DNA from: Thermoplasmata archaeon
GTDB lineage: Archaea > Thermoplasmatota > Thermoplasmata > Methanomassiliicoccales > Methanomethylophilaceae
NCBI GenBank assembly: GCA_015063125.1
Contig: SUTB01000001.1
Location: 62,001 to 126,000 of the forward strand
DNA length: 64,000 bases
Direction: 5' to 3'
Below, piece after piece: positions 6,201-64,000 of this stretch. Below the pieces are notes generated by a model. That model was not told the DNA's origin. It ran no database searches and was given only the letters and a program-made list of their open reading frames with translations. Both the position numbers and the translations under genes were made by a program. Positions within the stretch are counted from its first letter, which is position 1; each line of letters begins with the position of its first letter.

Positions 6201-8400
6201 TTGTATAGAGGTTGACGTTGACGATAGCTCCGTCTCCCATCTGATAGATTGTGGTGATGTCCCTTGCCGCGTAGTCACTGTTGATGGTAATGGTACCAAA
6301 GTTGTAGACTTTAGCAGAATCCATCTTACCGAGGTTCTTGAGCTCTGCTCCCTTTGCTACAGTGAGCTTGGAAGCTGCTCCGGTGCTGATCGCTCCGCTG
6401 TCCTCGTTGGTGAGGGTGGCCCCGCTGAGCAATGTGAAAGTCTGGTTGTCATCGATGACGATTGCTCCGCCGTTCACGATCTGTCCGGATACGTATACGG
6501 CACCGCTCTCGTTGACAAACAGTCCACCGTAGTAGCCATCGGTAGCCTGGTCATCCTCATCCTCATCAATGATGATCTTTCCGTAGACCTCAAGGACTGC
6601 AGAGTTTTCAAGGACGAGTTTAGCTCCATCCTCGATAACGAGTGTGGATCCCTCAGGAACTATGAGCTTTCCAGAAACATAAATGTCTGCAGGGTTAGTG
6701 TAGGTATAGCCTGCAAGAGTCCAAGAACCATCGACGATAAGGGTCTGGCTTGCAGGATATGAGTGGTGTCCCAGAGCTGTGTCGTACACATACTGGGTCT
6801 CCATGGAGTCATCGGTGATGACTGTGATCTGGGATGCGATTGCAGGGTGTACAGTACCGGTAGCCGTTGTCTTGACAATGGCCGTTCCTCCAACATTGTC
6901 AAAGGTGGCTGTATCGCTGACATCAGCCAAGGTAAGGTTACCAGCGATGTTCAGAACAGAGTTGTTACTGAGATCTATATTCTGGTCGTTACCGATTGTC
7001 AGGGTTGCATCCTTGTCGATGTTGAGCGTGGTTCCAACGAGAGTGAGCTCTCCTGCGGTTTCAACTACACCAAGGATATCGAATGAACCGCCAGTGATGG
7101 TGGTCTCGATGATCTTTGTAGCTTTGATTCCCTTAATGAAGGAACCGGCAACATTGGCGTTAATAAATCCTCCGACGTCTATGGAATCTCCGTGTGCGAT
7201 GGTCGCATTTCCAACGCCACCGGTAACATCTACCATTATCTTCTCATTGACGGTGGTTCCAGTCATGAAGGTCATGGTTCCTGCATACCTTCCGCCATTC
7301 TGCACTTCAAGGTTCATTGAGATTGCATCTGCCTGAGTCAAATCTGAAATCAGAACTCCAGTGATGATGATCTTACCTGCATAGGTAAGGGGGATCTCGC
7401 TGACAACCGTTAAGCTGATAGTGGGGGCGCCACCAAACGTGAATGTTCCGCTTCCGGCCACGTTCAAGTTGTAATCGATCGCTCCATCATAGGATTTAGC
7501 ATATGCATCCTTATCGACTGTCAGAGTACCGTCTGCACAACCTGCATCGATAATGACATCTTTTCCAGAGGCGGCTTTAACGACTTCAATGTCTCCAGCT
7601 TTCCATTCAGAAACAGTTACGATTCCTGCAGCAGAAACTGTGAGTTTTCCAGTGAAATCGGTGATCTTGACCTTCTGGTCACCGCCAGCCTGAGTGGACG
7701 TGATTGTTCCGGTTGCCTCGTAGTAGTCGAAGACTGATACGTCTCCAGATGCGTTCCACATCGTACCGAATGCATCAGTGGTGTGCATGACGGCGGAAAC
7801 CACTGGGGTCTCGAGGTCAGCTGTGGAAGCATAGGTTATATGGTTGTATTCTGTGAACTTAAGTGTCACGTTGTCCCCTGCAGCAACAGCAAAGTTCTGG
7901 TTGGCGCATGTGGCGGGGTCACCATCTTCAGATGCGACTATTTTGGGTACTGTGTAATCTTCAGCTTGTGCCCATGCCGTCTTAATGGCGGTGCTAGAGT
8001 AATCTCCATGCAAAGAAAGCACATTGCCGCTCTTCGTCACACCCAATACGTGCACGTAGATTGTCGTTGCACCGTCTGAGTTGTCCATATTGACATCAAC
8101 TGTCGCCCCGTTCTCGAGCAACAGAAGAACAGCGCTTCCTTCGACTGCGGTTTTTGTGATCTTAACCGACATGCTGGAAGGCACATAATAGTATGTTCCT
8201 GCTGTCAGCGTGAGTCCATCTGTGGCAGTCAGAACAAAATCGTCGTTGATGGTCAGAGTGTTTGGATCTGCACTGAAGTTCCAAACGGTTGTTGTAGCCG
8301 TTGCATCATCTGTCTCCGCAGGTGCGACGACAGCGAATGCGGCGAACGCCATAGCCAATACAGCCAGGACTGCCAGGAATTTCATTCCTTTTGTATTCAT
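3262..8400 (-). CDS. Giant exported surface/adhesin-like repeat protein
   Basis: This 1712-residue protein has an N-terminal signal segment (MNTKGMKFLAVLAVLAMAFA, cleavage likely near residue 28). Its very long body is rich in Gly, Thr, Val, Ala and Asp. Recurrent short patterns such as GTTLTVNGAVVIGSG- or LTIPAGVTLNI-like strands suggest a right-handed beta-helix or stacked beta repeats. A C-terminal membrane anchor (about residues 1682-1706) ends in LRLNRS. It should sit on the outside of the cell, tethered to the membrane; binding of host or substrate surfaces is inference. The start ATG follows a good AAGGAG site at about 8409-8415. It is transcribed away from the regulator at 8766-9349. 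No transglutaminase, protease or lamin-tail domain was recognised. Confidence 0.85.
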   Translation of the reverse strand: MNTKGMKFLAVLAVLAMAFAAFAVVAPAETDDATATTTVWNFSADPNTLTINDDFVLTATDGLTLTAGTYYYVPSSMSVKITKTAVEGSAVLLLLENGATVDVNMDNSDGATTIYVHVLGVTKSGNVLSLHGDYSSTAIKTAWAQAEDYTVPKIVASEDGDPATCANQNFAVAAGDNVTLKFTEYNHITYASTADLETPVVSAVMHTTDAFGTMWNASGDVSVFDYYEATGTITSTQAGGDQKVKITDFTGKLTVSAAGIVTVSEWKAGDIEVVKAASGKDVIIDAGCADGTLTVDKDAYAKSYDGAIDYNLNVAGSGTFTFGGAPTISLTVVSEIPLTYAGKIIITGVLISDLTQADAISMNLEVQNGGRYAGTMTFMTGTTVNEKIMVDVTGGVGNATIAHGDSIDVGGFINANVAGSFIKGIKATKIIETTITGGSFDILGVVETAGELTLVGTTLNIDKDATLTIGNDQNIDLSNNSVLNIAGNLTLADVSDTATFDNVGGTAIVKTTATGTVHPAIASQITVITDDSMETQYVYDTALGHHSYPASQTLIVDGSWTLAGYTYTNPADIYVSGKLIVPEGSTLVIEDGAKLVLENSAVLEVYGKIIIDEDEDDQATDGYYGGLFVNESGAVYVSGQIVNGGAIVIDDNQTFTLLSGATLTNEDSGAISTGAASKLTVAKGAELKNLGKMDSAKVYNFGTITINSDYAARDITTIYQMGDGAIVNVNLYTIDVSRYTNAGLIITDDGMHLYTYRDSTLHDEAYVVSENVNTVTITAALMNGDAYITSDYVLEFANLTVVSSVVIDNVGKEGVKYGTNYYEKAMDVSGTIDVGYTYVATTGSGSTTYTATSKVTASAADGADYMTVTGVLLVKDNSAFELASGNMILSGAIATESTAGSFTKSVDSTFTVVGDGIAKIYGVPLNARAGINATELVIPTPVSNRTVKVYTYVTIDNALEYLASAEDVANEATILGINVMTESADLYASDKLIDAGVLYISDGITLTIKDGAELKGTGIIYVDGTMFAENKSNVKISEDKISADVKTVQLDSKGKVVKDGWAKWTNIISAINSTDDGTVTITRANDNPLQDYVAIASNLTIPAGVTLNIPGNAAPLVLFNGVTLTVNGAVVIGSGADIKAQTDFNLVAYNVVTDTDGNGIYSSAIIVNGSLTSAANIVYGNGNYGTTTKKVTADDWTGKSLVSSTADSGAIIAGAYYTVNGYHVISSLEIALANIEDIDGNFTVYGAVAAGNVTFAATEYVNQITVHGVNFTYDAYPAGLNKPVANTLTVEKLTIVCPSGVSSAKIIGSGSVTGAIASSKADITVKGVSGMTVSVSSTGAMALTGTAATALKGDYLNIVSGEVSTGVASPATAFVVNLASNSSMAINEGATLKVAGATTLDNVTVNGTLSVPASKTLNLKAEKTMTIKGTLDVAKASASSAPGIFNVLDEATIYIGITKKDMQTSAAASVSGPVAFADDARVFIGSGASVDSSFTDCLGTTTTAFYVEGALWFTAYLIGDGASTVTVDKVSVSNAVLDGWATTNGGAAYNFGTAVNPNYYTPTIGAKSALYAVLDYDIYAVIILADQGVKNVSIDGVLLRSEATGTDTFATVANLEAGTHTVAFSLYSGHEGTAILQYVDATEGVTATILGMNFTVSGDNEGTVTLQLVGIEEIDPVPEEKSEWTITTILLVILVILIAVMAVIVALRLNRS

Positions 8401-32055: not shown

Positions 32056-33996
32056 TCATATGATTTTCGCGTTAGCGGTACGCACCAGATTGATTTCCTC
32101 ATAGGTCTCTATGCGGAGATCGTCCAGAGTGTAGTACTTTGCATGAAGGGCATTTGCGAATTTCACCGCGTTATGCTCCACATCCTCGCGTTTCTCAGTA
32201 TCGATGACGATCCATTTTACCGTGGGGAGGTTGACTTTCTCGGCCATCTCCAGGGCCTGCTTGAGGGGATCAGTTTCCTTATCGTCCGGATCTAACGGAA
32301 GGTTGGCATTTCCGTCTGTGACCAATACCACATAGCAATCATCGTTGGGACGTTTCTTGGTGTACATCGCCATATAGTTGCTGAGGTATTGTATAGCACC
32401 GGAGAGCGGGGTCTTCCTGCCTATGGCCAGATCATCAAGCATCTTGTAAATGACCTCCACCTCTCTTGAGGGTTGCAGAAGCATTGTGATGGCCTTTTCG
32501 TTGAAGGTCATGAAACCTACGCGGTCCTTCTTGACATAGTGTTCTTTGAGCAGGGAAAGGATTGCTCCTTTGACCGCGACCATCCTGTTACGGATAATGA
32601 GCGAACCGCTTGTATCCACTGCGAACAAGAAGGTTGAGGAGCTCCTCGTCTCCCTGATCTTCTCCCTCATGTCCTGTTTCTCGATGATGACGGCCATATC
32701 GGTGTCATTCTCCTTATGGCGTTTCATCTGATAGGGGGCGCTAGCGCGCACGGTCGCATCGAAGGCGAGATCAGGATTCTTCTCATCGGTGACTCTGGAA
32801 CCGACGTATCTGCCGTTCCTCTCTTTGGTCTTCTGCTGGAATCTCTTCCCATTGGCAGACGCTTCGCCCTTTGCCTTCGCAGTGTCCTGTTCGAAAAGAT
32901 CGATGGTCTTGAACGTCTCTCCGATCTTAGTGATGACGTCCTCTGTTTCTTTCCTTTTGAACTTAGGTCCGTTACCTTCTTCCACAGGCTGGTTGGCCGA
33001 CATATCGGTGATGCCGTCGCCCGACAGATCTACGTTGTCTTCTCTGTTGGTGAACAGCTTCTTTGCAGCTTTGGAATCCGTGTTGAATCCGACGGTTGAC
33101 CTGGCCAGTTTCTGCTTCTTGTCAACCCTTCTTCCTTTGACGACTTTCACTCTGTGGTTAAGACAGAGGACGGACGCTTCCATGATGTCGGATTCGTTTG
33201 TCTCCGTTCTTCCATCCAGCGCAGCCAGAGTCATGGCGACGTTTGCTGCAGAGAGGTCTCCGCGGTGGCCATCGATGCCCATGTTGTTGCACACGCCGGC
33301 TATGGCCTCCATCAGAGCCTCAGAAGGCTCCTCATCCTTCAGGATATCCGAGGCACGGGTTATCCTGTCGTGGACCTCATCATCCGCCTCGCGGTACTTC
33401 TCCATGAATACGTCAGGGTCATCGTCGTAGGCGATGCTCCTCCTCAGGATCTCTTCTCTCCCTGCCGAATCTTCTGGATAGTCCACGGTGACGCACATGT
33501 CGAAATGGTCCAGGATCGGAGGGGAGAGGTACGAGTCACTGTTGTTCATGGTGGCGACCAGGATAGTGTCCACCTTGTACGACGTGGACATGTTCTCCCT
33601 TTCAATCCTCACCTGACCTGACAGGACAGCATCAATGACTCCTGTGATGATCCTGTGTTCGAATAGGTTGATGTCATCCATGTACAGGATGTTGTGGTCA
33701 CCTCTATTGAGCAATCCTTCCTGAAGAGATAGCTTCCCTTCTTTGACCGCCAGTTCTATATCGAGACAGCCGAACAGTTGCTCATCGGTGACATTCAGCG
33801 GAATGTTCACTATCGATTTTCCGGAAATCTGTCCGAGCGAACGTGCTACCAGTGTCTTCCCGGTACCGGACGGACCTCTGATTAGTACTGATTTGATGCG
33901 TGGATTCGCTATCGCGCACATCAGTGCTTTCTTGGTCTGATCCATCCCGTATACTGCAGAGAAAGGATAGTAGGCCGTCTTCAAATTCCCAGACAT
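32056..33996 (-). CDS. ChlD/BchD-like AAA+ and VWA protein of a metal chelatase
   Basis: The 646-residue protein has an AAA+ domain with Walker A GPSGTGKT (about 40-47) and Walker B LYMDDIN, a long charged linker (about 300-400), and a C-terminal VWA domain with the MIDAS motif DTSGS near 465. This is the D-subunit layout of Mg/Co-chelatases, which works with an I subunit and a large CobN/ChlH subunit. The I subunit is encoded next to it with a 16-bp overlap. No CobN is in the window. In a corrinoid-dependent methanogen cobalt insertion is the likeliest task; other AAA-VWA remodelling roles are possible. Confidence 0.82.
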   Translation of the reverse strand: MSGNLKTAYYPFSAVYGMDQTKKALMCAIANPRIKSVLIRGPSGTGKTLVARSLGQISGKSIVNIPLNVTDEQLFGCLDIELAVKEGKLSLQEGLLNRGDHNILYMDDINLFEHRIITGVIDAVLSGQVRIERENMSTSYKVDTILVATMNNSDSYLSPPILDHFDMCVTVDYPEDSAGREEILRRSIAYDDDPDVFMEKYREADDEVHDRITRASDILKDEEPSEALMEAIAGVCNNMGIDGHRGDLSAANVAMTLAALDGRTETNESDIMEASVLCLNHRVKVVKGRRVDKKQKLARSTVGFNTDSKAAKKLFTNREDNVDLSGDGITDMSANQPVEEGNGPKFKRKETEDVITKIGETFKTIDLFEQDTAKAKGEASANGKRFQQKTKERNGRYVGSRVTDEKNPDLAFDATVRASAPYQMKRHKENDTDMAVIIEKQDMREKIRETRSSSTFLFAVDTSGSLIIRNRMVAVKGAILSLLKEHYVKKDRVGFMTFNEKAITMLLQPSREVEVIYKMLDDLAIGRKTPLSGAIQYLSNYMAMYTKKRPNDDCYVVLVTDGNANLPLDPDDKETDPLKQALEMAEKVNLPTVKWIVIDTEKREDVEHNAVKFANALHAKYYTLDDLRIETYEEINLVRTANAKII

Positions 33997-35009
33997 ACAT
34001 CCAACTCCTTCTCATCGAAGGTGACGTTGTCGAATGCACGTTTCTTGAGACGGTGTGACAGGACCAGGGGAGCGATCTCGCGGAGGTCTTGTTTGGTGAC
34101 CTCTTTCCTCCCGTCCAGCGCGGCATTGGCTTTGGCAGCCCTCATCATGGTGATGTCGGCTCTGTGCCCTTCCATCTTGAAGTGTATCGATACCATGACG
34201 ATATCATGGATTATCTTGTCGTCGAGCTTCACTTCAGAGAGAGTCTCTCTTGCGGTGACGATTTTCTTGCGGAGCTCATCTATCTCGTCCTTGCAGGATT
34301 CCAGGTATCCTTCGGGATCCTTGTCGAACTCCATCCTGCGCTTGATGACCTCCATCCTGGTGGGGACCTCCTTCTCTCCCTCGATATCGACACAGAGTCC
34401 GAACCTGTCCAATAACTGGGGCCTGAGGCTTCCCTCTTCGGGGTTCATGCTTCCGATGAGAATGAACTTGGCAGGATGGGAGAATGATACGCCCTCCCTC
34501 TCGATGTAGTTGACACCCATCGCGGCGGAATCAAGGAGCAGATCGATTATATGGTCGTCCAGAAGGTTGACCTCATCCACATAGAGAACGTTCCCGTTTG
34601 CCTGTGCGAGAACTCCAGGTTCGAACTTCTTCTCTCCTGTTTTGAGGACATGTTCCAAATCCAACGTTCCGGACACACGGTCCTCGGTCGCACTCAGAGG
34701 GAGTTCCACAACGGTCATCGGCATTTCCTCGGATTTCAGTTCTTCCCCTTTCGAGAGTTTTTCGCGACATTGGATGCACATCCTCTTGGGATATCTGGGG
34801 TCGCAGTGGAACGGACAGCCGATAACGGTTGGTCTCATAGGGAGAATCTGTGACAAGGATCTGATGGAGGTGGACTTCGCCGTACCCTTTTCCCCTTTGA
34901 TCAAAACCCCGCCGATTCCAGGGTCGATGATGTTCAGGAGCAATGCTTTTTTCATCAAATCCTGTCCGACTACACGGACAAATGGGAACATAATCGATTC
35001 CGTTGTCAT
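33981..35009 (-). CDS. ChlI/BchI-like AAA+ subunit of a metal chelatase
   Basis: The 342-residue AAA+ ATPase has Walker A GEKGTAKST (about 38-46), a Cys-rich insert CPFHCDP...CIQC (about 64-83) known from archaeal/bacterial ChlI-type proteins, Walker B LYVDEVNLLDD and sensor GSMNPEEGSLRPQLLDRFGL. ATP hydrolysis by I and D subunits drives metal insertion into tetrapyrroles. It is the first gene of a two-gene operon; its end overlaps the ChlD-like start. A TATA-like CTTTATTAA at 35036-35045 and AGGTAAT before the ATG support the start. Confidence 0.85.
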   Translation of the reverse strand: MTTESIMFPFVRVVGQDLMKKALLLNIIDPGIGGVLIKGEKGTAKSTSIRSLSQILPMRPTVIGCPFHCDPRYPKRMCIQCREKLSKGEELKSEEMPMTVVELPLSATEDRVSGTLDLEHVLKTGEKKFEPGVLAQANGNVLYVDEVNLLDDHIIDLLLDSAAMGVNYIEREGVSFSHPAKFILIGSMNPEEGSLRPQLLDRFGLCVDIEGEKEVPTRMEVIKRRMEFDKDPEGYLESCKDEIDELRKKIVTARETLSEVKLDDKIIHDIVMVSIHFKMEGHRADITMMRAAKANAALDGRKEVTKQDLREIAPLVLSHRLKKRAFDNVTFDEKELDVCLGI

Positions 35010-45688: not shown

Positions 45689-48600
45689 TCACGCCCATTC
45701 TATGTTGATCCTGAAAAGCCATAGATCGTGGTCCATGCCCTTCTTCGGGGATAGTTTGGAGGGAATAATCTCGAGCGGACAGTCTATGATGCGGATCCCG
45801 CACTCGATCCCTGGAGTCCCCACATCTTTCCCATAGATCCTGCTCAAAGCGGATACATTGGCCCTGAATGTCACGCCCAGATCCACCTTCGGAGCATCAT
45901 CGAGCGAACGGGCCAGCAGACGCGGGTACTGTATCCCAACATCGAATGTAACCTCGAGATCTATGTTGTCTGTGAATGCGGCCACACCGTCGATCCTGTA
46001 GGGGTTCTTCATCGACAGCGCTACGGATTCGATCTTGCCCGCTATGTACTTCAGCACATCCTCCACAAGCTCGGAGTCGCATCTCAGCGCAACGCGAACC
46101 CCTGATTTGGCAGTGGAGGTCGGGTCGGTGACGTCCACTTTGATGAATACCGAGGCTTCCACCAGACAGCCGGCCACCTTCTTGATGACCTTGTCGATCG
46201 AGTTTTTCACAGTGAGCTTGATGACCTCCTGCAGGGAATCGGTGTCTGTTATCGCACCGACCTTGTCGAACGCTGACTGGACGGAATCCCATACGATCTC
46301 CTTGGCGATCTCGCAGGTCATCAGGTTGGTGGAGATGTACGAGCCGTTGGAGCGTCCCATGGTCCCTTCCTTGAATTCCCATTCCCCTGAAGCGTCGTAG
46401 GTCCTCTGCCAGGTCTTCCCGTTGTCGGATTCATCCTTATGCGTGCCCGTCCGGTCCACGATGTTCCCGTCCGGATCCTTGAGGGTGAGGCCCTCTCCGT
46501 TCTTCGTCGTCTTTCCCTGGGAGTTCACCATGAGAAATGTAGAATTGAGCACCAGGAACTCGCCTGGAGATATTGTGCCAGATAAGGTCATTTTCTTCTT
46601 TGAGAAGTCCGAAGAAGCTACGATGCTGTACCCATCCAAGTCTATGGTCTTGTCAGAATTGTTGAACAGCTCTATCCATTCCTTCCCCGAGTCATCTCCT
46701 GCAGGATTGGATTCGTATTCGTTGATCAGGATGCCCTCCGCCATGGGCGCGGTGTACTTTATCCCGATGCCCGCATCCAGCCCTATGTTAACCCCGAGTC
46801 CCGGTAAGGGGATGCTGCTCAGTGCCTGACCTATCCCGGGGATTTTGCTGAGAGTCACCCCTATCTCGTTGTAGTCGTCCAAATCCGGCAGGATCGCCGT
46901 GATGTCTGCTCCGCGGACGTTTGCCGATACCGTCAGCAGATGCTTGCTGCTCTTCATAAGCGGATCAACGGATATTTTGACCTTCCAATCCTCATTTTCG
47001 ACGGAGGCCTTTCCGGTGACGAAGGTGTTGTTGATGTGCATCTCGCCCTTCACCTTAGCTGTGATCTCTGCTTTCAAATCCATGCCTGCGACCGGTCCGG
47101 TCAGCGATGCCACGAATAGAGTCTTGACGTTAGAAGTCAGAGAGGCTGCATCGAACTTCAGCTGGAAGGTGTATCCTAGGTATTCGAACCCTATGGTCTG
47201 CTCCTTGAGATTGAGACTGTAGAACATGTCCAGTACATCGTCACCGAATATCTGCGATACCATGGTCTCCAGCCATTCCGCCATCTCCGTCAGCGGGGCC
47301 GTAACCCTTTCGAACAGTCTCACGACGATATCGGAAACATATCTGGAGATCTCCATAATGCAGGCGTTTATCTCATCCACTATCTCCTTCACGATGGCCA
47401 TCACCTTGCGGAGAGGCTCAATGATCGGCTCGAGATAGACGGACAGCTTGTTCCAAATGTCGTCATAAATGGTCTCACTGGCCTTGTACTGGACGCCTGC
47501 CAGTGCCCAGCCGCTGGCGACGCTTATCTCCAGCACGATGTCGTTCGTAAACATCCCTTTGCAGGCGGCAGTGACGGAGGAGCCCATGGCGGAGGACAGG
47601 GAGTTTGATGATTCTATGCGGTAATCAATGCAGTCCCTGAGGCGTATCTCGAAGGTTGTGGAGTATCCGGCGCTCATGGATTCCCTGAATCCGGTCATGT
47701 GGGTGCATTTGCTTGTGACCACGGTCGGTGCGCTGATCACAGGATCGGAATCGAAATAGAAGTCCAGTCTCTCACGAGTGAGGTTCCCGGCCCCATCCGC
47801 CAGGATGAACCCGTCTGTTCCCCTCATCCGGACTATCTCCGAATAGGGGTTAGAGGACATGTTGTCGATGACCTCAGACAGCAGGACATCAACTCTGTCC
47901 TCGACCAGCTCCTGCAACCCGAGCGTTCCGATATAGCCTGATGCAATCTCAGTGAGTATGCTCTGGAGGATGCTTGGACCATTTCCCTGGACATACCTCA
48001 GCGAGTCGTAGACCGAAAGATCATCATGCAGCTTCGCTGCGTATCCGTGAATCGCGCGATCTATCTCCTGTGAGGAGATCAGACTTTCTGCATCGTCTCC
48101 GAACAATGCGAACAGTTTCTCCTCAATGGATCCACGGAGAGCAACAGTATCGCAGAGGTCGTCCGCATGAGACATCACGGTCTCAGCTATGGATGCATAG
48201 AATGGATCGTAACTGTCCTGCGATGCTATGGAGTCAACCAGCACGGCGTTCAGGCTGTCGGAGAAACCATCTGTCATCCCTCTGTATGCTTCGGACACCT
48301 CCCTGATGAAAGAGATATCATCATACGGATCGGTATGGATGATGACATCCTCCAGATCCTGTTCGAATAATCTCGCAGCGGCCGTATTGAGAGCGCTTCT
48401 AAGTGTGTCCGTTATGTAATTCTCCGTGAGCCTGTAGTGGACATTGAAGAACCTGATCCATCCCTGATCCAATATGTCTATGACGGGATTGTCGACAGTC
48501 AGAGTGAATCCATCAATGGTCACTGAAGTGGTCCCCGATCCCGGGAAACGGTACCTTTGCTCCTCGATGCCATGTTCGTCCATGAATCTGACGATGTAAT

Positions 48601-49585
48601 CCCCTGCTCCGAAGGCATCCTCTCCAGTGAAGAACTTCACCAGACATTCGGCCGCTAGTGTGCGAAGACCTCTCTCCCTGTCGTTCTTCTCTGTGATGTA
48701 GTCCAACCGCAGATAGTCGTACCATTTCAGGACGGCGTCGTCCAAGATCGACATCAGGCACTGTCCGTAGAAAGCCGACCTGTCTATCACGACGGTGCCG
48801 CATACGATGTCTGCGGCATCGATCTGTTCGATCTGCCCGTTGCGGAAGCACATGGTGCCTATGATGTCCAGCGCATTACGGTATGCCTTCGAGACGTCCG
48901 ATTCGGTGATGATGGACATCGTCCCGGCAACTCCGAACTGAGTCCTGGACCCGTAGCCGTTGAGGACACGGTACTGCGCCAATGATTCGAGTTCATAGGA
49001 CATGATCTGCGAGATGGAGATGCCTCCGTCCTCGACCATCCTCTCGAACAGAGATCCCTGTTCCGCCGCAAGGGGGAGGGCATAGCTGCCGTCCGTGGAG
49101 ATAACGATATCGCGGACGGAGCCGCCGAATCCGGATGATGCGCTGACAGTCATCGTCCCGCTTCCTTTGAGATAGGCGGGGATGTACCCGCCAACGGGGC
49201 TTTCTCCGTTAAGGACCTCCATGGATTCTGCTCCAAGGTCTACGCTGACGTCCACAAGTTCTGTTCTGACTCCGTTGCTCCTCATAGGGAAAGTGTAATC
49301 GAACCAACTGTCCGACCGCTCCTTGAACACCGTTGCTCTGTCCTCCAGGGAGCCGAGGTCACCGTCCCTAGATATATCGAGGATCAAGACTCCCAGCTCT
49401 TGGTTGACGTATGATGAGATCTCTTCCAACGAGGAATCCAACGCCCTGGTCCCCTCAGCCGTCTCTTCTACGCCGTTCCCGGACCTCATGTGGTCCGCGA
49501 CAACGATCCCGGCGACCGATGAAAGCAGCAGGATCGTTACTGCAATGACCGAGAAAGGCATGTTTCCACGCTTGTCTCCATACAT
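45689..49585 (-). CDS. Large exported protein with lamin-tail domain
   Basis: The 1298-residue protein begins with a short basic stretch and one hydrophobic segment (MYGDKRGNMPFSVIAVTILL, to about residue 30), like archaeal pilin- or TadE-like anchored proteins. The long extracellular part is helical and beta mixed. A lamin-tail domain is clear at about 950-1050 (ILINEYESNPAGDDSGKEWI, ELFNNSDKTIDLDGYSI, ISPGEFLVLN); such domains often bind DNA or surfaces outside the cell. No nuclease motif was recognised. A GTATAAAAAA box 26 nt upstream fixes the start. It ends without a C-terminal anchor. Confidence 0.75.
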   Translation of the reverse strand: MYGDKRGNMPFSVIAVTILLLSSVAGIVVADHMRSGNGVEETAEGTRALDSSLEEISSYVNQELGVLILDISRDGDLGSLEDRATVFKERSDSWFDYTFPMRSNGVRTELVDVSVDLGAESMEVLNGESPVGGYIPAYLKGSGTMTVSASSGFGGSVRDIVISTDGSYALPLAAEQGSLFERMVEDGGISISQIMSYELESLAQYRVLNGYGSRTQFGVAGTMSIITESDVSKAYRNALDIIGTMCFRNGQIEQIDAADIVCGTVVIDRSAFYGQCLMSILDDAVLKWYDYLRLDYITEKNDRERGLRTLAAECLVKFFTGEDAFGAGDYIVRFMDEHGIEEQRYRFPGSGTTSVTIDGFTLTVDNPVIDILDQGWIRFFNVHYRLTENYITDTLRSALNTAAARLFEQDLEDVIIHTDPYDDISFIREVSEAYRGMTDGFSDSLNAVLVDSIASQDSYDPFYASIAETVMSHADDLCDTVALRGSIEEKLFALFGDDAESLISSQEIDRAIHGYAAKLHDDLSVYDSLRYVQGNGPSILQSILTEIASGYIGTLGLQELVEDRVDVLLSEVIDNMSSNPYSEIVRMRGTDGFILADGAGNLTRERLDFYFDSDPVISAPTVVTSKCTHMTGFRESMSAGYSTTFEIRLRDCIDYRIESSNSLSSAMGSSVTAACKGMFTNDIVLEISVASGWALAGVQYKASETIYDDIWNKLSVYLEPIIEPLRKVMAIVKEIVDEINACIMEISRYVSDIVVRLFERVTAPLTEMAEWLETMVSQIFGDDVLDMFYSLNLKEQTIGFEYLGYTFQLKFDAASLTSNVKTLFVASLTGPVAGMDLKAEITAKVKGEMHINNTFVTGKASVENEDWKVKISVDPLMKSSKHLLTVSANVRGADITAILPDLDDYNEIGVTLSKIPGIGQALSSIPLPGLGVNIGLDAGIGIKYTAPMAEGILINEYESNPAGDDSGKEWIELFNNSDKTIDLDGYSIVASSDFSKKKMTLSGTISPGEFLVLNSTFLMVNSQGKTTKNGEGLTLKDPDGNIVDRTGTHKDESDNGKTWQRTYDASGEWEFKEGTMGRSNGSYISTNLMTCEIAKEIVWDSVQSAFDKVGAITDTDSLQEVIKLTVKNSIDKVIKKVAGCLVEASVFIKVDVTDPTSTAKSGVRVALRCDSELVEDVLKYIAGKIESVALSMKNPYRIDGVAAFTDNIDLEVTFDVGIQYPRLLARSLDDAPKVDLGVTFRANVSALSRIYGKDVGTPGIECGIRIIDCPLEIIPSKLSPKKGMDHDLWLFRINIEWA

Positions 49586-55548: not shown

Positions 55549-56673
55549 TCACCTTAGTTTCTTGACTGTGGACTCAAGGATGTCCATTCCTTTGTTGATC
55601 TTTGTTTCGTCCGCTGCGTAGGAGAACCTCAGATGGCCTTCTCCGTACTTTCCGAATGCCGATCCCGGGGTGCATATGAGCCCAGCTTTGACCAGTTCCC
55701 CTGCCAGTTCCTGGGAGCTGATCTTCATGTCGAACGAGGGGAATGCGTAGAATGCTCCCTTCGGAGGTTCGATGCTGAATCCGGGGATCTCGTTTAGCCT
55801 CTTGCATATCAGGTCCCTTCTGGCCCTGTAGACGTTCCTGGCGTTCTCCAGGTAAGGGTCTATGCTGGGCAAGGCATCCAGTATGCCGTACATGGCGGGC
55901 ATGTTGGGGCTAGCGCAGACATGGTACTGCATCTTGATCAGGTACTCCATCATCTCCTTGCTGGCGCAGAGGAATCCCATCCTCCAGCCGGTCACCGCCA
56001 TCATCTTGGAGAATCCGCTGGCGACAATAGCCTTATCCAGCTGGTTCATGAATGACAGGTGCTTGCCCTCGTAGATGAAGGACTCGTACACCTCGTCGGC
56101 CAGGATGGTTATGTTCTTGTCGGCGGCGATGTCGCAAAGGGCCTTGTAGCTCTCCTCGTTCAGAACGCCCCCGGTAGGATTGGAGGGAGTGGTAACGACC
56201 AGCATCTTCGTCTTGGAAGTGATCTTCGACTGTATGTCGTCGATGTCGGGCTGGAAGTCCCCGTCCGTGAGCTTGTATTCAGTGAACGTGCCGCCTGCGA
56301 GCTGTGCGTGCGGTCCGTAGATGACGAAACCGGGGCTGGGAACGAGAACATCGTCGCCCGGGTTCACCACGCTCATTGTGATCTCCAACAATGCCGATGA
56401 TCCGCTGGGAGTGATCATTATGTTGTCACCCGTGATGTCACCGTATTTCCTGAACCTGTCGGCAACAGCCTTCCTGAGCTCGGGTATTCCGGCGGTAGGG
56501 CCGTACTTGTTACGTCCCTCTGAAGCGGCCTTGTTCATGCCCTCTACGGCTTCCTTGGGCGGTGCGAGATCGGGTTCACCCAGGCCTAGATTGATGGAAT
56601 CTGGGCCAGCCATGTCGAACATCTTTCTGATACCTGACATCGGGATGTCGTGTATCCTGTTGGAGATCTGCAT
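55549..56673 (-). CDS. Class I/II PLP-dependent aminotransferase
   Basis: The 374-residue aspartate/aromatic aminotransferase-type enzyme begins MQISNRIHDIPMSGIRKMFD. Family motifs: NLGLGEPDLAPP, ITPSGSSALLEI, TTPSNPTGGV, ADEVYE, and the PLP lysine in ASGFSKMMAVTGWRMGF. The amino donor cannot be told from sequence. The frame is open to 56754, but a TTTTATTTA box at 56694-56703 lies 26 nt before ATG 56673, pointing to a leaderless start there; ATG at 56685 is the alternative. It is the first gene of the operon through the HdrD-like protein. Confidence 0.88.
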   Translation of the reverse strand: MQISNRIHDIPMSGIRKMFDMAGPDSINLGLGEPDLAPPKEAVEGMNKAASEGRNKYGPTAGIPELRKAVADRFRKYGDITGDNIMITPSGSSALLEITMSVVNPGDDVLVPSPGFVIYGPHAQLAGGTFTEYKLTDGDFQPDIDDIQSKITSKTKMLVVTTPSNPTGGVLNEESYKALCDIAADKNITILADEVYESFIYEGKHLSFMNQLDKAIVASGFSKMMAVTGWRMGFLCASKEMMEYLIKMQYHVCASPNMPAMYGILDALPSIDPYLENARNVYRARRDLICKRLNEIPGFSIEPPKGAFYAFPSFDMKISSQELAGELVKAGLICTPGSAFGKYGEGHLRFSYAADETKINKGMDILESTVKKLR

Positions 56674-56693
56674 GGTGCGGGTCATACCTTCTG

Positions 56694-56719: not shown

Positions 56720-58861
56720 TTAGAGTTCGAGGCCTGTATCCAGCTTATCCGCAACGAACTCCCTTACAAGCAGGGATTCGGGGATGTATCTGTCGTATTT
56801 CCCGTATTTCAGAAGGTCCTCGTCGTAGATCAGCGGAGCGAGGTCCCTCTCCTCGACGTACCTCAGCACCCTGTCGATTATCTGGTCCTCTGACAGTTTG
56901 GTCCTGATGTCGATGTAGTAGGGCTGATAGGCCCTGATGGAATCTGTGCCGATCACTTTCTGGAGGATCCTCCTGAGGGTGTCGAACTGTTTCGTCCCCA
57001 GCCAGGGGTACATCCTGTATCCGCCTTTCCTCTCCGAGAACAAGGTGGTCATCCCGTTCTCCCTGGCGATGGCCCTGCTCTCTTGGAGACGAGCTTTCGC
57101 GGCATCGTCCAGATAGTGGTACTCCTCATCGCTCTCTAGAACCTCCAACATCTTCTTCATGACGCGGTTGTGTGTCGGCGGGGTTCCTGATTTCCAGGGG
57201 TTGCACGCCTCTCCGTCGCATTCCTCCACCTCGACCGTAGATTTCTCCTTGGAGGCCTTGATGACCCTCCATACGCGTCCGGCCAATTGGATGAGATCAT
57301 CTTCTGAGGGCATATTCTGTATCGAACCGACCATGTGGCCGTCGCATTTCACCATGACCTCATTCTTAGTGGTGAACACCGAGCAGAAGTCGCGGTTGAA
57401 CACAACACGTTCGGCATTCTGGCCAATCAGGATCGTCTGGTCTGACATGACCTCTAAGTGGCCTATGTTGACCAGATGCTTGATCATCAGTTTGTACTGC
57501 TCCTTCGAGATGTTTCTGAAAGGGTACATCGATAGTACGTCAGAAGCTAGCAGCGAGAACTTGGCCCCGATCCCGGAACGGAGGTATTCCATCGTCTGAT
57601 GGTAGAGGAGTCCGAACGGCATTGAGTTCTGCTCTGCCGGTTCGGTCCACCCCTCATTCAGGACGAGCTCCGACATCGCGACGGCCTTGACCAGACTCAT
57701 GGAAACGCCATCCAAAGTCGCCCACCATTCCTCGGCGTCCTCGTTGCACATGAGGATAAGGTTCTGTCCGTTTCCTCTCCTTCCGGAACGGCCCATCCTC
57801 TGGACCAGGCCCGAACATGTGTACGGGGCATCGATCTGGACTATCCTATCCAGATCCCCTACGTCTATCCCCAGCTCCAAAGTGACCGTAGCCACGGTCG
57901 TGTTCTTGACCATGGGGTTCTTCAATCTGTCCTCCGCTATCTTGCGGTACTCCTTAGATATGCTGCCGTGATGGATCGTGACTTCGTCTGGATAGCCTTT
58001 CTTCTCCGAGACGATCCTAAGGGATTTGGCAGCCATCTCGGCGCTGTGCCTGCTGTTGGTGAACACGATGCAGTTGTAGCCATGCGTCTCCCTGAACAGG
58101 TCCAGGTAGTACGATGTGATGGCCTTCTTCCTGTCCACGCTGTCAGTCTCTGGATCCGGAAGAGGGAAGGCGTTGTACTTGATGCATATGTTGCGCTGGT
58201 TACTGGCCTTATCGTAGACGATACTGACGTAGCGGCCAGTATCGGCCTTCAGCCATTCTGCGGCATCCTCCCTGTTCGCAATGGTCGCTGAAAGCCCTAT
58301 CCTTCTCGGATCGCAGTGGGCGAGGAGTTCCAATCTCTGGAGGCAGCACAGCAGCTGCAGTCCCCTGTCGGAATCCATGAATGCATGCACTTCGTCGATG
58401 ATGATGAACCTGAGGTCCCCGAAGAGCCTCTCCACTTCCTCGGGGTTATACGAAACGATGTTCTGAAGGGATTCCGGAGTGATCTGGAGTATCCCGCTGG
58501 GTTCAGCGACGAGTTTGTCCTTGGAACTCTTGGCGATATCTCCGTGCCATCCTGTGATCTTGAGTTCCGATTCCCCTAGAACCGGCCTCATCCTCTCGAA
58601 CTGGTCGTTGATCAGTGCCTTCAGCGGACCGATGTACAGCGCCCCCACGCTCTCAGGCGGATTGTTGTAGAGCGAACCTATGACCGGGAACATGGCCGCC
58701 TCGGTCTTACCGCTGGACGTTCCCGCTGAGATCAGTATGTGGTCATCCGTGGAATAGAATGCCTCGAAGGTCTGGTTCTGGATCTCCCTGAAGCCGGACC
58801 ATCTGCAGTTGTGGATGTACTCTTTGACGAACCAAGGCAGCTTGTCGAAGTACTCGCTCAT
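56720..58861 (-). CDS. Lhr-like DEAD/DEAH-box helicase of a TerB/BrxD-type module
   Basis: The 713-residue superfamily 2 helicase has Walker A SAGTSSGKTEA (about 45-55), DEVH (near 157), SAT, and a second RecA domain ending QRMGRSGRRGNG. The C-terminal part has a Cys pair (ECDGEAC). Helicases of this shape (BrxHI-like) are known beside DUF2791/BrxD ATPases in some BREX and related islands. Here it is the third gene; its ATG overlaps the end of the ATPase gene by 4 nt. No methylase, PglZ or nuclease is nearby. Confidence 0.82.
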   Translation of the reverse strand: MSEYFDKLPWFVKEYIHNCRWSGFREIQNQTFEAFYSTDDHILISAGTSSGKTEAAMFPVIGSLYNNPPESVGALYIGPLKALINDQFERMRPVLGESELKITGWHGDIAKSSKDKLVAEPSGILQITPESLQNIVSYNPEEVERLFGDLRFIIIDEVHAFMDSDRGLQLLCCLQRLELLAHCDPRRIGLSATIANREDAAEWLKADTGRYVSIVYDKASNQRNICIKYNAFPLPDPETDSVDRKKAITSYYLDLFRETHGYNCIVFTNSRHSAEMAAKSLRIVSEKKGYPDEVTIHHGSISKEYRKIAEDRLKNPMVKNTTVATVTLELGIDVGDLDRIVQIDAPYTCSGLVQRMGRSGRRGNGQNLILMCNEDAEEWWATLDGVSMSLVKAVAMSELVLNEGWTEPAEQNSMPFGLLYHQTMEYLRSGIGAKFSLLASDVLSMYPFRNISKEQYKLMIKHLVNIGHLEVMSDQTILIGQNAERVVFNRDFCSVFTTKNEVMVKCDGHMVGSIQNMPSEDDLIQLAGRVWRVIKASKEKSTVEVEECDGEACNPWKSGTPPTHNRVMKKMLEVLESDEEYHYLDDAAKARLQESRAIARENGMTTLFSERKGGYRMYPWLGTKQFDTLRRILQKVIGTDSIRAYQPYYIDIRTKLSEDQIIDRVLRYVEERDLAPLIYDEDLLKYGKYDRYIPESLLVREFVADKLDTGLEL

Positions 58862-60132
58862 ACCTCAAGGTCCTCGATGATCTCATCGTCGGGGTTGTCA
58901 TCGGCCTTGACCAGTCTTCCCTCTATCAGGTCCATGAAGTTCAGGTCCCCGTTCTGGTGCATGGTATCCAGGAGGCTGATGAGGTCCCTGGTGATCTCCC
59001 TGGGGGTGATCATAGCGGTAGAGACGACGTTGGACATGATCGTCCTGAGGTATGTCTCCAGCATCTCGTCGGTGATCTGCGATTTGTACTCGTACCTCTG
59101 CTCGTGGAGGTCCTTGATTGTCTTGAGGAGGACGAAGACCTCCTCGTTCGTCAGGGGCTTGAGGTTGATGATCGGCCCGAGGTAGTTGTCGAATCCGTTC
59201 TCGTAGCGTCCGGCGACGAGCCTGGACCTGAGTGCCTCATAGCTGTACAGTCCCCTGTTGGGGTCCTCGATGAACTCGGGTGTCCCGCAGACGTAGATGG
59301 ACATGTACTGCGTCTTGCCCTGCATGATGTCGTTGAACATGGTCAGCAGACGCTCGTAGTTGTTGGCCCTGGAGACCTTGTTCTGCAGCTTGTAGAGGAT
59401 GACCCCTTCGTCGATGAAGACGATGAGTCCCTTGTATCCGAGCCTCTTGAAGATGCCTGACCAGATCTTGATCATGTCGTACCAGTTGCTGTCGTCTATG
59501 ACGACGTTGGTGCCGAGGCTCTTCCTGGACTCCTTCTTGAGGTCCAGTTCTCCCTTCAGCCACCTGAGGGCGGTGATGTCGTCCTTGCCGTCGAGGAAAT
59601 CGTTGGTGTAGCAGACGATGACCCTCATGAAGTCCTGATAGTTCTGATAGCTGGAGATGTCCGCGACATCAGCACGCATGGCCTTCTCGATATCCTCTTT
59701 GGATGGGGATCCGCCCAGTTTCTCCTGTGTGTTGGAGATCCAGTTCTGGAGAAGGGACTCCAGTGCTCCCCCGTCGGGTCTGGCCTTGTATGCTATGTTC
59801 CTGAGGAGCTCCTTGTACGTGTTGAGCCCCTCGCTCTTGGAACCAGTGAGTCTCCTGTTGATGGCGAGATCGGCATCCATGACGACGAAGCCGTTCTCCA
59901 TGGCGTAGTTGCGTATCATCTGCGTCATGAAGCTCTTACCGTTACCGAAGCGGCCGGAGATGAATCTGAATGCTCCTCCGCCTGCAGCGGTGTCCTCCAG
60001 GTCGTTGACGAACGTCTCGGTCTCCTTCTTCCTACCTACCGCGATGTACTCCAATCCCCTTCTAGGTACGACACCAGAGGATAGAGCGTTCATCATTCCG
60101 ATCAGAGTTCTCTTTGGGACGGTTTCTGTCAT
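58858..60132 (-). CDS. BrxD-like (DUF2791-type) P-loop ATPase
   Basis: The 424-residue protein has Walker A ISGRFGNGKSFMTQMI (near 58-73) and Walker B KGLIVFIDEGVILY (near 248-261), in the pattern of the ATP-binding proteins called BrxD in BREX type 2. The N-terminus MTETVPKRTLIGMMNALSSG and GLEYIAVGRKKE also fit. The C-terminus is acidic (DDEIIEDLEV). It is second in the operon, 66 nt after the TerB-type gene and overlapping the helicase start, which suggests the two proteins form a complex. Confidence 0.8.
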   Translation of the reverse strand: MTETVPKRTLIGMMNALSSGVVPRRGLEYIAVGRKKETETFVNDLEDTAAGGGAFRFISGRFGNGKSFMTQMIRNYAMENGFVVMDADLAINRRLTGSKSEGLNTYKELLRNIAYKARPDGGALESLLQNWISNTQEKLGGSPSKEDIEKAMRADVADISSYQNYQDFMRVIVCYTNDFLDGKDDITALRWLKGELDLKKESRKSLGTNVVIDDSNWYDMIKIWSGIFKRLGYKGLIVFIDEGVILYKLQNKVSRANNYERLLTMFNDIMQGKTQYMSIYVCGTPEFIEDPNRGLYSYEALRSRLVAGRYENGFDNYLGPIINLKPLTNEEVFVLLKTIKDLHEQRYEYKSQITDEMLETYLRTIMSNVVSTAMITPREITRDLISLLDTMHQNGDLNFMDLIEGRLVKADDNPDDEIIEDLEV

Positions 60133-60198
60133 GGTAGAATTCCCTTCGGGGCGCCGTATATAATGCGCGCATATACTTTTATCGCTGTTCTGCGGGCA

Positions 60199-62469
60199 TC
60201 AGAGCAACGATCTAACGTCGTCCGCATAGTCCTCGAAGACGTTTCCGTCCTCAACGATGCTGTCGCCCACTGAATCCATGGCGAGAGTGTTGATGGCCTC
60301 TTCTATCCTGGTCATCAGCAGCCCCTTGTCCTTGAGATACTGTTTCGCCTTGCCTTCGAGAGCGGCTTCGAGGTATCCTTTCTGGTCATCGTCCAGAGCC
60401 TCGGAAAGGCCCTGCCATGTGTTGGAAATCGCTCTCACGGGCTCGACAGGCTTGGTGACATTCTCGGGAACTATCTCCTCGTCGTTTCCGACCTTCATCA
60501 TCTCGGTGACTTCTTTGAGGGCAGCCTGTGCACCAGACACCGCCTCGAGATCCAGTTTCATGTTGCTGGCTCTTTCTTTGATCTCCTCTATGGCCTTATT
60601 CTCGTACCATGCGGAAACACTCTTGGATACGATATCCTTGCAGTCCATTCCAAACGCTGCCACCTTGCCGATCTTGACTGCCTTTCCGGTCCTCTTCATG
60701 CGCACTGCTGAGAACACGGCCTTGACTATCTCCTTCAGAGAGTCGTCGAACATTCCGTTGTAGATGTAGTTGAGATAGGTGAATCTGGCCTTCCTGATCT
60801 CCTTGAAATACTTCAGGCCCTCGAAGACATTGATGACGGTGTTGACCTTCTCGGGGTCGCACAGTTCCTCGATCGATGTGCCTTCCGCTTTCAACGTTGC
60901 CTGAACGCCGCGTATGGACATGTTGGTGATCCCGACACAGTCGGGGTCGAACTCCCTGGTCATCGTCTTATCGTTGATGCCCGATAGGAACAGGAGCAGA
61001 GTCTTGTCAGGCCTGACGTTCATTCCCTTGAGGAACTGGTCCATGACCAGACAGGCGGTTATGTTGGATTCGCTGATGGAAGGCTCAGGGAACGGTAGCT
61101 TGTGGACCACGGAGTACTCGAAGCAGGTCTTTCCGATGAGCTTCTCCTCATCGGCCGAACCGTAGGCCTTGTGGAGTGCTATCAGCTGGTCCAGGTTCTT
61201 CTGGGGATCCTCCTTGACATTGATGAGTTCGCAAAGGTACAGCCATAGGTATCCCCAGTCGGTCTCTCCGTAGTTGCCTTTGCGGGTCTGGTCACGCCAG
61301 TATACGTAGCATTTCCTCTGAGGCTCGGTGAACGACCTCCAGTCGGGGTTCGTGAATCCGGACGGGATGTACTCCTGCTTCTCCTTGATCTCCACGTTCC
61401 AATTCCTCTCGATATCTGTCTTGAGGTGCGGGCTCACATGCTGCTTCTCAGCGTTCTTGTCGATGTTGAGTATGGGCTTAGGCTTCTCCGCGGTTCCGTA
61501 TTGTGCTTCCAGATGCGCTCCCATATCGACAAGCGCCCTTTCCTTAGAGGACATCGGGACCCTGGTGGTGCCTCTCCATTCCTTCGGGATGCGCTCGTAT
61601 TCTCCGGGCCCTTCCGAGAATATCCTGTCGACAATTCCCCTGAACTCCTTATTGAACGAGCTGGGGGTGGCAGGGCCCTTCTCACCGATCTCCTTGCACA
61701 GGACCTTCCTGGTATACGAGAACAGTCCGAGCATGAACTCTCCGAAGACACCATCGGTGCGGAGCTTCTCATAGGTGACCTGATAGTCTTTGTCCTTTCC
61801 GTATGGGAGGTACATGAAGACCTTGAACAGCTCGGAGACCATCCCTTCGGAGTAGGTCTTGGCGATTCCCTTGCCCGTATTCTCCATCAGGAAGCGGTCT
61901 ATGGCGGTGAGGCTGTCGTTGAAAAGTGAAACATGTCTGAGGTTGTCCACGCCGTCGGCGTGCACCTTCGGGCCTCCCGACAGATACCAGATCAGCTCCC
62001 TGTTGAGCCTCCTGGTCGGAAAGGACATTATCTCGGATGTGACCATGAAGGATCTGACTGATCCTTTTCCCAACCACATGATCGGGAGGTCGAGGTCGTG
62101 GACCACGGCATAATCGAACATCACCGATCCCAGATCGGACTGGGGCATGCCGTGCATCCTGGTGTTCTCGTAGAGCAGCCTAAGCTCTCTGATGCCTTCG
62201 GCAGGATCCATATCGGAGTTGATTATCTCGACGACCCTGAGTTTGGCGTATCCTCTGTCGGATTTGAGGCAGTTCCCGCGGGACAGCTCGTCCCTCCAGT
62301 AAAGGTAGTATGCTCTCTGTTGACGGTCCATCACGGAGTAGTCGGCGTTCCTGTGATTGCACCTAACGTATTCGCATTCCTCTCCGTGCCTGTCCCTGTA
62401 CTCCTCGATCTGGGATAGAAGGTCGTTGACGTTGTATTCGCGTCTTTCCTCGTACGGATTGAATGCCAT
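60199..62469 (-). CDS. TerB-type stress/defence protein with duplicated TerB-N domain
   Basis: From ATG 62469 the 756-residue protein contains two similar units: residues about 50-130 (QQRAYYLYWRDELSRGN, then YAKLRVVEIIN) and about 380-470 (QRKCYVYWRDQTRKGNYGE, then YLWLYLCELIN). Both match the TerB-N pattern (YY-YWR...G-Y...Y-ELIN). The C-terminus (INTLAMDSVGDSIVEDGN) resembles TerB-C. Such proteins are predicted scaffold or sensor parts of tellurite-type stress and phage-defence modules. It is the first gene of the three-gene module. AGGTAG precedes the ATG; a longer in-frame start at 62499 is less likely. Confidence 0.72.
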   Translation of the reverse strand: MAFNPYEERREYNVNDLLSQIEEYRDRHGEECEYVRCNHRNADYSVMDRQQRAYYLYWRDELSRGNCLKSDRGYAKLRVVEIINSDMDPAEGIRELRLLYENTRMHGMPQSDLGSVMFDYAVVHDLDLPIMWLGKGSVRSFMVTSEIMSFPTRRLNRELIWYLSGGPKVHADGVDNLRHVSLFNDSLTAIDRFLMENTGKGIAKTYSEGMVSELFKVFMYLPYGKDKDYQVTYEKLRTDGVFGEFMLGLFSYTRKVLCKEIGEKGPATPSSFNKEFRGIVDRIFSEGPGEYERIPKEWRGTTRVPMSSKERALVDMGAHLEAQYGTAEKPKPILNIDKNAEKQHVSPHLKTDIERNWNVEIKEKQEYIPSGFTNPDWRSFTEPQRKCYVYWRDQTRKGNYGETDWGYLWLYLCELINVKEDPQKNLDQLIALHKAYGSADEEKLIGKTCFEYSVVHKLPFPEPSISESNITACLVMDQFLKGMNVRPDKTLLLFLSGINDKTMTREFDPDCVGITNMSIRGVQATLKAEGTSIEELCDPEKVNTVINVFEGLKYFKEIRKARFTYLNYIYNGMFDDSLKEIVKAVFSAVRMKRTGKAVKIGKVAAFGMDCKDIVSKSVSAWYENKAIEEIKERASNMKLDLEAVSGAQAALKEVTEMMKVGNDEEIVPENVTKPVEPVRAISNTWQGLSEALDDDQKGYLEAALEGKAKQYLKDKGLLMTRIEEAINTLAMDSVGDSIVEDGNVFEDYADDVRSLL

Positions 62470-62500
62470 CAGAACTACCTGCCCCAGTATAGCTCTCAAT

Positions 62501-62510
62501 CATAAAATAA
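62501..62510 (-). promoter_or_regulatory. Candidate TATA box for the TerB/BrxD/helicase module
   Basis: On the minus strand TTATTTTATG is centred about 36 nt before ATG 62469, leaving a short leader with the AGGTAG site. It lies back-to-back with the promoter at 62528-62536. Confidence 0.5.
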
Positions 62511-62527
62511 CTGTCAGTCCGTGCGTC

Positions 62528-62536
62528 TTTTATAGG
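62528..62536 (+). promoter_or_regulatory. TATA box for the DUF1846 gene
   Basis: TTTTATAGG is centred 26 nt before the ATG at 62558, consistent with a leaderless transcript. Confidence 0.65.
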
Positions 62537-62557
62537 ATTCTGCCGTTATTTCTTTGC

Positions 62558-64000
62558 ATGAAGGTCGGTTTCGACAACGACATGTACCTCAAGACGCAGT
62601 CCGAACATATCAGGGAACGCATCCAGAAGTTCGGAGGTAAGCTGTATCTCGAGTTTGGTGGCAAGCTTTTCGACGATTATCACGCATCAAGGGTCCTTCC
62701 CGGTTTCATGCCCGACAGTAAGATCAGGATGCTCATGGAGTTCGGTCAGGATGCCGAGGCGATCGTGGTCATCAATGCCGAGGACATCGTCAAGAAGAAG
62801 ATACGCAAGGACTTCAGCGTAGGATACGATTCCGAGGTGTTCAGGCTCGTGGACATGTTCCTCGACAGGGGCATCGGAGTGTGCGGTCTGGTCATCACGC
62901 ATTTCAACGGACAGGCCGAGGCAGAGGCATTCCAGAAGAAAGCCGAGTCCAACGGTCTGAAGGTCTACAGGCACTACCTGATAGACGGATATCCCTCCAA
63001 TGTCGACCTCATCGCATCCGACGAAGGATTCGGAAAGGACGAGTTCGTCCCGACCACCAAACCGCTAGTCGTTGTCACCGCTCCCGGACCTGGAAGCGGA
63101 AAGATGGCTGTCTGCCTCTCGCAACTCTACAACGAGAAGAAGAGAGGCGTGTCCGCAGGATATGCGAAGTTCGAGACCTTCCCGATTTGGAATATCCCGC
63201 TGAAGCACCCGGTGAACATCGCCTATGAGGCGGCCACGGTGGACCTGGCGGATGTCAACATGATCGACCCGTTCCATCTGGAAGCATACGGAGAGACCAC
63301 GGTCAACTACAACAGGGACATCGAGATATTCCCCGTTGTGAACGCGATCCTCGAGGGCGTCTTGGGAAGCTCCCCCTATAAGTCCCCCACGGATATGGGA
63401 GTGAACATGGCGGGCAACTGTATCGTCGACGACGAGTTTGTCAGGAAAGCAGCGAACTATGAGATCATCAGGCGTTACTTCTCGACCCTCAGGGACCGCA
63501 GGGAGGGCAGAGCATCGGCAGAGACCCTTCTGAAGTCCGAGATCTACATGAAGAATGCCGGTATCACCCCGGAGTACCGCAAGACCGTAGCAACCGTCAG
63601 GCAGCTGATGACAGAGACGGAAAGGCCCATAGTCGCAGCAGAGTTGGATGACGGAAGGCTGGTCACTGGAAAGGCCACCCCGTTGACCACAGCATCCTCA
63701 TCGCTTCTTTTGAACATGCTAAAGGAGCTCGCGGGCATAGACGATTCCGTTACTCTGATTTCCAAGGAGGTCATCGAATCGGTCCACAGGCTGAAGGTCA
63801 ACAACCTCGGGTACAAGAACCCCCGCATGCATCTCGATGAGATGCTTGTAGCCCTTTCCATAATCGCAAGGACCGACAAGAACGCGGAGAAGGCATTCGC
63901 GATGCTCCCCCTGCTGAGGGGATGCGACGTGCACTCCTCGGTGATCCTTTCTGCTGTGGACGAGGGAGTCTACAAGAAGCTTGGAATGAGCACATCCAGC
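62558..64000 (+). CDS. DUF1846 family protein (3' end beyond the window)
   Basis: From ATG 62558 the frame is open to the last base (481 codons). The start MKVGFDNDMYLKTQSEHIRE and segments PLVVVTAPGPGSGKMAVCLSQLY, KFETFPIWNIPLKHPVN and GVNMAGNCIVDDE match the DUF1846 family, proteins of about 500 residues with a P-loop-like GPGSGK motif. Their function is not settled. Only a few residues are missing. It is divergent from the TerB/BrxD/helicase module; a link to it is not shown. Confidence 0.88.
   Translation, partial: MKVGFDNDMYLKTQSEHIRERIQKFGGKLYLEFGGKLFDDYHASRVLPGFMPDSKIRMLMEFGQDAEAIVVINAEDIVKKKIRKDFSVGYDSEVFRLVDMFLDRGIGVCGLVITHFNGQAEAEAFQKKAESNGLKVYRHYLIDGYPSNVDLIASDEGFGKDEFVPTTKPLVVVTAPGPGSGKMAVCLSQLYNEKKRGVSAGYAKFETFPIWNIPLKHPVNIAYEAATVDLADVNMIDPFHLEAYGETTVNYNRDIEIFPVVNAILEGVLGSSPYKSPTDMGVNMAGNCIVDDEFVRKAANYEIIRRYFSTLRDRREGRASAETLLKSEIYMKNAGITPEYRKTVATVRQLMTETERPIVAAELDDGRLVTGKATPLTTASSSLLLNMLKELAGIDDSVTLISKEVIESVHRLKVNNLGYKNPRMHLDEMLVALSIIARTDKNAEKAFAMLPLLRGCDVHSSVILSAVDEGVYKKLGMSTSS

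Follow-up and report, generated by a model that had tools for sequence, protein, structure and literature searches.

The locus comprises three genes on the minus strand of the window, by which we mean the whole stretch of 64,000 nucleotides of archaeal DNA that was analysed. The open reading frame coordinates agree with the original prediction of a tightly coupled trio at 56720-62469: SngB and SngC overlap by 4 nt (ATGA), and a 66-nt gap separates SngA from SngB (Table 1). Translation of SngA from an upstream TTG would give 766 residues, a start that is unsupported given that its orthologues are 753-758 residues long, and we therefore took the ATG start. A TATA-like sequence, CCTATAAAAG, was noticed by eye on the minus strand of the 88 bp that separate SngA from the DUF1846 gene. 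The GC content of the trio is that of its surroundings, and a search for att-like repeats flanking it returned only short, chance-like repeats. Elsewhere, the window contains two very large minus-strand ORFs, one of 1712 aa with no Pfam family (3262-8400) and one of 1298 aa in which Pfam recognizes only a lamin-tail domain (45689-49585), as well as a MoxR-type AAA/VWA protein beside a second Mg-chelatase-like AAA protein (32056-35009).

Table 1. Genes, motifs and borders at the locus, in window coordinates
Feature	Position	Strand	Description
SngA	60199-62469	-	TerB_N-duplicated protein, 756 aa, from ATG at 62469
SngB	58858-60132	-	ORC/Cdc6-type AAA+ ATPase, BrxC_BrxD family, 424 aa
SngC	56720-58861	-	Lhr/BrxHI-like SF2 helicase, 713 aa
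First TerB_N unit of SngA, residues 31-129	62083-62379	-	Unit HMM 1e-34; coordinates converted from residues
Second TerB_N unit of SngA, residues 365-461	61087-61377	-	Unit HMM 2e-36; Pfam TerB_N
TerB_C-like C-terminus of SngA, residues 626-746	60232-60594	-	Pfam TerB_C 2.2e-4, under the curated cut-off
SngB Walker A, GRFGNGKS	59932-59955	-	Core glycines and lysine invariant (alignments A1, A5)
SngB Walker B, VFIDE	59407-59421	-	D241 and E242 conserved (alignments)
SngC motif I, GTSSGKT	58703-58723	-	Conserved (alignment A2)
SngC motif II, DEVH	58385-58396	-	Conserved (alignment A2)
Divergent intergenic region, SngA/DUF1846 gene, 88 bp	62470-62557	.	Probable promoter region
Aminotransferase gene, one border of the occupied site	55549-56685	-	Pfam Aminotran_1_2; internal ATG start inferred
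DUF1846 gene, other border of the occupied site	62558-64000	+	Pfam DUF1846; runs off the window

PADLOC models of Shango matched all three proteins (3/3), SngA with 121 bits, SngB with 479 bits against 154 for the BrxD model, and SngC with 654 bits against 415 for the BrxHI model. Pfam assigned SngB to BrxC_BrxD (PF10923, formerly DUF2791; 430 bits) and SngC to DEAD and Helicase_C, and it found TerB_N in two stretches of SngA, above the curated cut-off (1.1e-16). The nearest solved relative of SngC by sequence is Lhr (5v9x, 2.4e-50). The DUF2791-type ATPase and the Lhr-like helicase of the original prediction are thus borne out, as is its expectation of matches to TerB_N, whereas TerB_C was matched weakly and under its cut-off, and a specific assignment to BrxD failed. 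Shango has been described as a system of three genes, encoding TerB, ATPase and helicase domains, that cuts plaquing 10-100-fold in P. aeruginosa (the PA14 system) and is active in E. coli too (PMC10250203). Our trio shares with the Shango systems of PA14, E. coli and Klebsiella a TerB-family protein, a BrxD-like ATPase and an SF2 helicase, stand-alone and in the order A-B-C. Judged by these model matches, the trio is almost certainly a complete Shango-type system (SngA, SngB and SngC), and the archaeal copy would be expected to act against viruses. The stand-alone three-gene defence system proposed earlier was therefore the right reading, with only the name missing. Shango itself is already known; what is new is the form of SngA, with its doubled TerB_N, and the natural history of the system.

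SngB and SngC have homologues in BrxD and BrxHI, the ATPase-helicase dyad of type 2 BREX. The pair might therefore be read as an incomplete or decayed BREX system of type 2, with an unrelated TerB_N protein beside it. The Shango models score SngB and SngC far above the BREX ones, SngB misses the NCBIfam BREX_BrxD equivalog (NF033438; 153 bits against a cut-off of 350), and the TerB_N partner is constant across archaeal and bacterial loci. The absence of other BREX parts, first remarked on in the window, also extends beyond it: the window's genome encodes one PF10923 protein, with no second, and PglZ was found in 0 of 31 genomes of the genus, so the trio, which keeps the order A-B-C without BREX components among the window's ORFs, is not a BREX remnant. 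The missing PglZ and the model scores rule out this reading for the genus, and we give it next to no weight.

The motifs of SngB (GRFGNGKS and VFIDE) and of SngC (GTSSGKT, DEVH, SAT and QRMGRSGRRG) are intact. In structural comparisons, the SngB model (pLDDT 87.3, pTM 0.84) found its nearest match in archaeal Orc1/Cdc6 2qby_B (Z 16.2, rmsd 5.3, 267 residues), with a second Orc1/Cdc6, 1w5t_A, close behind (Z 16.1, rmsd 3.7, 261 residues), followed by ORC subunits and TnsC (Z about 13.9); BrxC was matched with a Foldseek E of 1.9e-3. The modelled fold is therefore like that of the Orc1/Cdc6 and TnsC AAA+ ATPases (Z 16 and about 14), although at about 10-15% identity the likeness is one of fold only. 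Together, the model and the alignments place SngB in the AAA+ fold with Walker A and B motifs, as in loaders of the ORC/Cdc6 clade. A role for BrxD as the loader of BrxHI has been proposed independently on comparative grounds (PMC12839542).

The two TerB-N-like units that had been described in SngA proved to be real repeats. Profile-profile comparison aligned the two halves of the protein over 291 columns (hhalign probability 100%, E 6.7e-57), indicating that about 300 residues were duplicated, beyond the TerB_N core alone. By an HMM of the unit, the window SngA has two copies, as do most SngAs from two of the family's genera (g1 and g7), and every bacterial SngA that scored has one. The TerB core (PF05099) was detected at E 0.01 in none of the window SngA and 35 members of the archaeal/Firmicute subtype, possibly through divergence beyond the model, and the PADLOC SngA model matched 35 of 35 subtype members. 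The same core was found in four of five proteobacterial and haloarchaeal SngAs, a set to which the original E. coli and PA14 sequences do not belong. On sequence grounds, Methanomethylophilaceae-type archaea and Firmicutes thus share a Shango subtype whose SngA has no detectable TerB core; relative to proteobacterial Shango, the archaeal SngA differs both in this respect and in having two TerB_N units. The nearest loci outside the archaeal family are those of Paenibacillus and Clostridia (L113-L181; SngB 45-48% identical), in a bacterial sample that consists of the best 80 SngB matches and six plasmid loci and is biased to close relatives. Their SngA also has TerB_N and TerB_C with the TerB core undetected, and their gene order is the same, A-B-C being kept in nearly all bacterial loci examined, but they have one TerB_N unit and an N-terminal part that is very variable in length. 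Where bacterial SngAs have long N-terminal extensions, Pfam recognized no domain in them. The SngA of the haloarchaeal plasmid phalar01 carries an N-terminal TM2 membrane domain (L190 1279-3768; 1.2e-16), which hints that SngA may be modular towards its N-terminus. In genus g12, a 311-aa gene upstream of SngA was considered as a split first unit and rejected on profile comparison; by eye it looks like a metallo-beta-lactamase-fold hydrolase.

In the AF2 model of SngA (pLDDT 87.6, pTM 0.52), two helical units resemble each other, each bearing a beta hairpin, and a small helical domain lies at the C-terminus. For the regions tested, no usable match to solved structures was obtained (Foldseek best E 0.78, VIA-align best Z 5.3), and the SngA sequence had no match in the PDB. 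Residues ~682-756 of the model gave weak HTH-like matches to LiaR, Cdc6 and sigma factors (Z 4-5), on which we do not rely.

SngB was found in 42 of the 147 genomes of the order and in all 31 genomes of its own genus; SngC is present in 30 of these 31, the exception being a copy cut at a contig end. Cas3 and N6_Mtase, the latter marking type I methylases, were each found in 8 of the same 31 genomes. The genus genomes are mostly MAGs, one per species, and within-species presence was seen in one pair, the two genomes of the window's species (G000, the window's genome, and G077), both of which carry Shango. These two differ in N6_Mtase, with two genes in G000 and none in G077, indicating that type I restriction varies within the species. 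Elsewhere in the family Shango is patchy. Among 400 sampled genomes of the class, three genera, all of this one family, account for every strong SngB match; we read weak hits beyond the family (about 55 positions, E around 1e-4) as generic ATPase matches. The nearest named archaeal loci are in rumen and gut Methanomassiliicoccales-type archaea. A SngB homologue is present on 691 plasmids, 542 of them predicted to be conjugative. The archaeal trio is chromosomal and fixed in its genus, whereas the Shango systems of PA14, E. coli and Klebsiella are patchy. Shango fixed in a genus of gut and rumen methanogens in which CRISPR and type I restriction are sporadic is a counter-example to the view that such accessory systems are always patchy.

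The position of the trio is less constant than its presence. It lies between the DUF1846 and aminotransferase genes in nine genomes, which form one clade on a tree of DP2 (DNA polymerase D large subunit). In five sister genomes the two border genes face each other over 0.9-1.9 kb with no ORF of at least 90 aa, the downstream gene order is kept and Shango is located elsewhere in the genome. Some of the other copies have Cas3e (G098) or a type IV restriction enzyme (G097) as a neighbour. Thus, the trio is fixed in the genus while its position shifts, and the universal conservation at one locus that the original prediction had considered is true of presence in the genus but not of place. SngB divergence on the whole follows that of DP2 (Mantel r 0.71) and the SngB tree recovers the main DP2 subclades, but other genera nest within the genus, one genome (G084) has a distant Shango type and sites are empty, which together suggest mostly vertical inheritance within subclades with relocation and occasional exchange. 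The empty sites, the distant type in G084, the plasmid homologues and the Cas3e and type IV neighbours point, at the level of sequence, to defence-like mobility.

SngA is the fastest-evolving subunit in archaea and bacteria alike, with the lowest sequence identities at equal genomic distance. Mean identity in the same-locus clade is 0.88 for DP2, 0.85 for SngB, 0.75 for SngC and 0.68 for SngA, and in the other genomes 0.81, 0.71, 0.56 and 0.27, respectively. Between G092 and G079, DP2 is 93% identical, SngB 82% and SngA 51%, and in species pairs whose DP2 is 75-85% identical, SngA is mostly 17-30% identical. Similarly, mean identity among Paenibacillaceae is 0.40 for SngA, 0.76 for SngB and 0.77 for SngC, and across bacterial loci SngA is far more variable in length than SngB and SngC. 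The pN/pS ratio is 0.31 for SngA, 0.24 for SngC and 0.15 for SngB, against about 0.095 for neighbour genes; the trio is therefore under purifying selection and is no chance set of ORFs. No gene-wide positive selection on SngA was detected, its pN/pS being below 1. At six archaeal loci, a tandem pair of SngA genes lies beside one SngB-SngC pair. The variability of SngA is consistent with a recognition subunit exposed to diversifying pressure, though it can also be accounted for by weaker constraint.

Its presence throughout the genus, where Cas3 and N6_Mtase are sporadic, the agreement of SngB with DP2 and the purifying selection could also mean that the trio has been domesticated as a genus-level core system for DNA maintenance or stress, in which Lhr-type unwinding and an ORC-like loader serve replication or repair and not immunity. 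We consider this improbable. The position is not conserved and the homologous site is empty in the five sister genomes, G084 has a different Shango type and other genera fall inside the genus on the SngB tree, and the low SngA identity where DP2 is well conserved is unlike a core repair gene. SngC is moreover split by a frameshift in G078 (L037) and by an in-frame stop in G084 (L043); these single SngC copies may be decaying or misassembled.

We favour an immune role for the trio. From the family identity, the gene order, the motifs, the fold class of the SngB model and the pattern of SngA variability, all of which are established here, we infer the following mechanism. SngA would be the recognition or sensor subunit, using its variable TerB_N region to flag a viral product or the invading DNA itself, and its C-terminus would hand over to SngB. 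SngB, as an ORC/Cdc6/TnsC-like AAA+ switch, would assemble in the presence of ATP, at or close to the flagged DNA, and load or activate SngC, which would then translocate on viral DNA and remodel it, disrupting replication or exposing the DNA to host nucleases. Neither a nuclease nor a modification enzyme was detected among the three proteins, and the final step may thus rest on blocked replication or on host nucleases. This counts against the explanation, as do the undetected TerB core, which belongs to the published description of Shango, and a GC content no different from that of the surroundings. Taken as a whole, a Shango anti-virus system of the archaeal/Firmicute subtype that works by recogniser, loader and helicase is probably the best explanation of the locus. 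For its parts, the evidence is evenly balanced on a loader-helicase mechanism for SngB-SngC, and we assign recognition to SngA more tentatively still. The literature searched yielded no mechanistic work on Shango; our comparison predicts that the TerB core is dispensable, that specificity lies in SngA and that SngB and SngC form a loader-helicase pair.

The roles could also be reversed: the SngB-SngC motor would act as the sensor when it stalls on viral DNA, and SngA would be the effector. This would resemble Hachiman, in which DNA is sensed by a helicase that then releases a nuclease. HamB is a sensor helicase, and SngC, BrxHI, DruE and DpdJ belong to a single clade of antiphage helicases (PMC12278908); the Lhr-like SF2 helicase of the trio would suit such a sensor. 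No catalytic domain was found in SngA by Pfam or by structure search, the latter a weak test, and divergence is fastest in SngA and not in SngC. This divergence and the six loci with two SngA genes per SngB-SngC pair fit recognition better than killing, and we regard the reversed arrangement as rather unlikely. If SngA is instead the recogniser, Shango might serve the genus as a permanent immune platform, in which a constant SngB-SngC motor is combined with an exchangeable and duplicable SngA whose TerB_N units read a viral feature. This is a speculative extension, in which the logic of SngA would be comparable to that of HsdS, the specificity subunit of type I restriction.

Two further observations concern other genomes. 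A second Shango-like pair occurs at L070 9371-11720 (G090:C8) and L071 7981-11332 (G092:C68). Its SngB is ~41% identical to that of the window, its partner, a short protein of 365-380 aa, aligns with the SngA model at the C-terminal end alone, and SngC was not found alongside; second SngB copies are also present in G079, G083 and G091. Separately, DP2 of two related genomes, G090 (L093) and G093 (L096), has an in-frame TAG at the same position (..LRSGVIHVDA*YSEPMLDCLG.. and ..LRSGIIRVSE*YSEPMLDCLG..), possibly reflecting pyrrolysine read-through.
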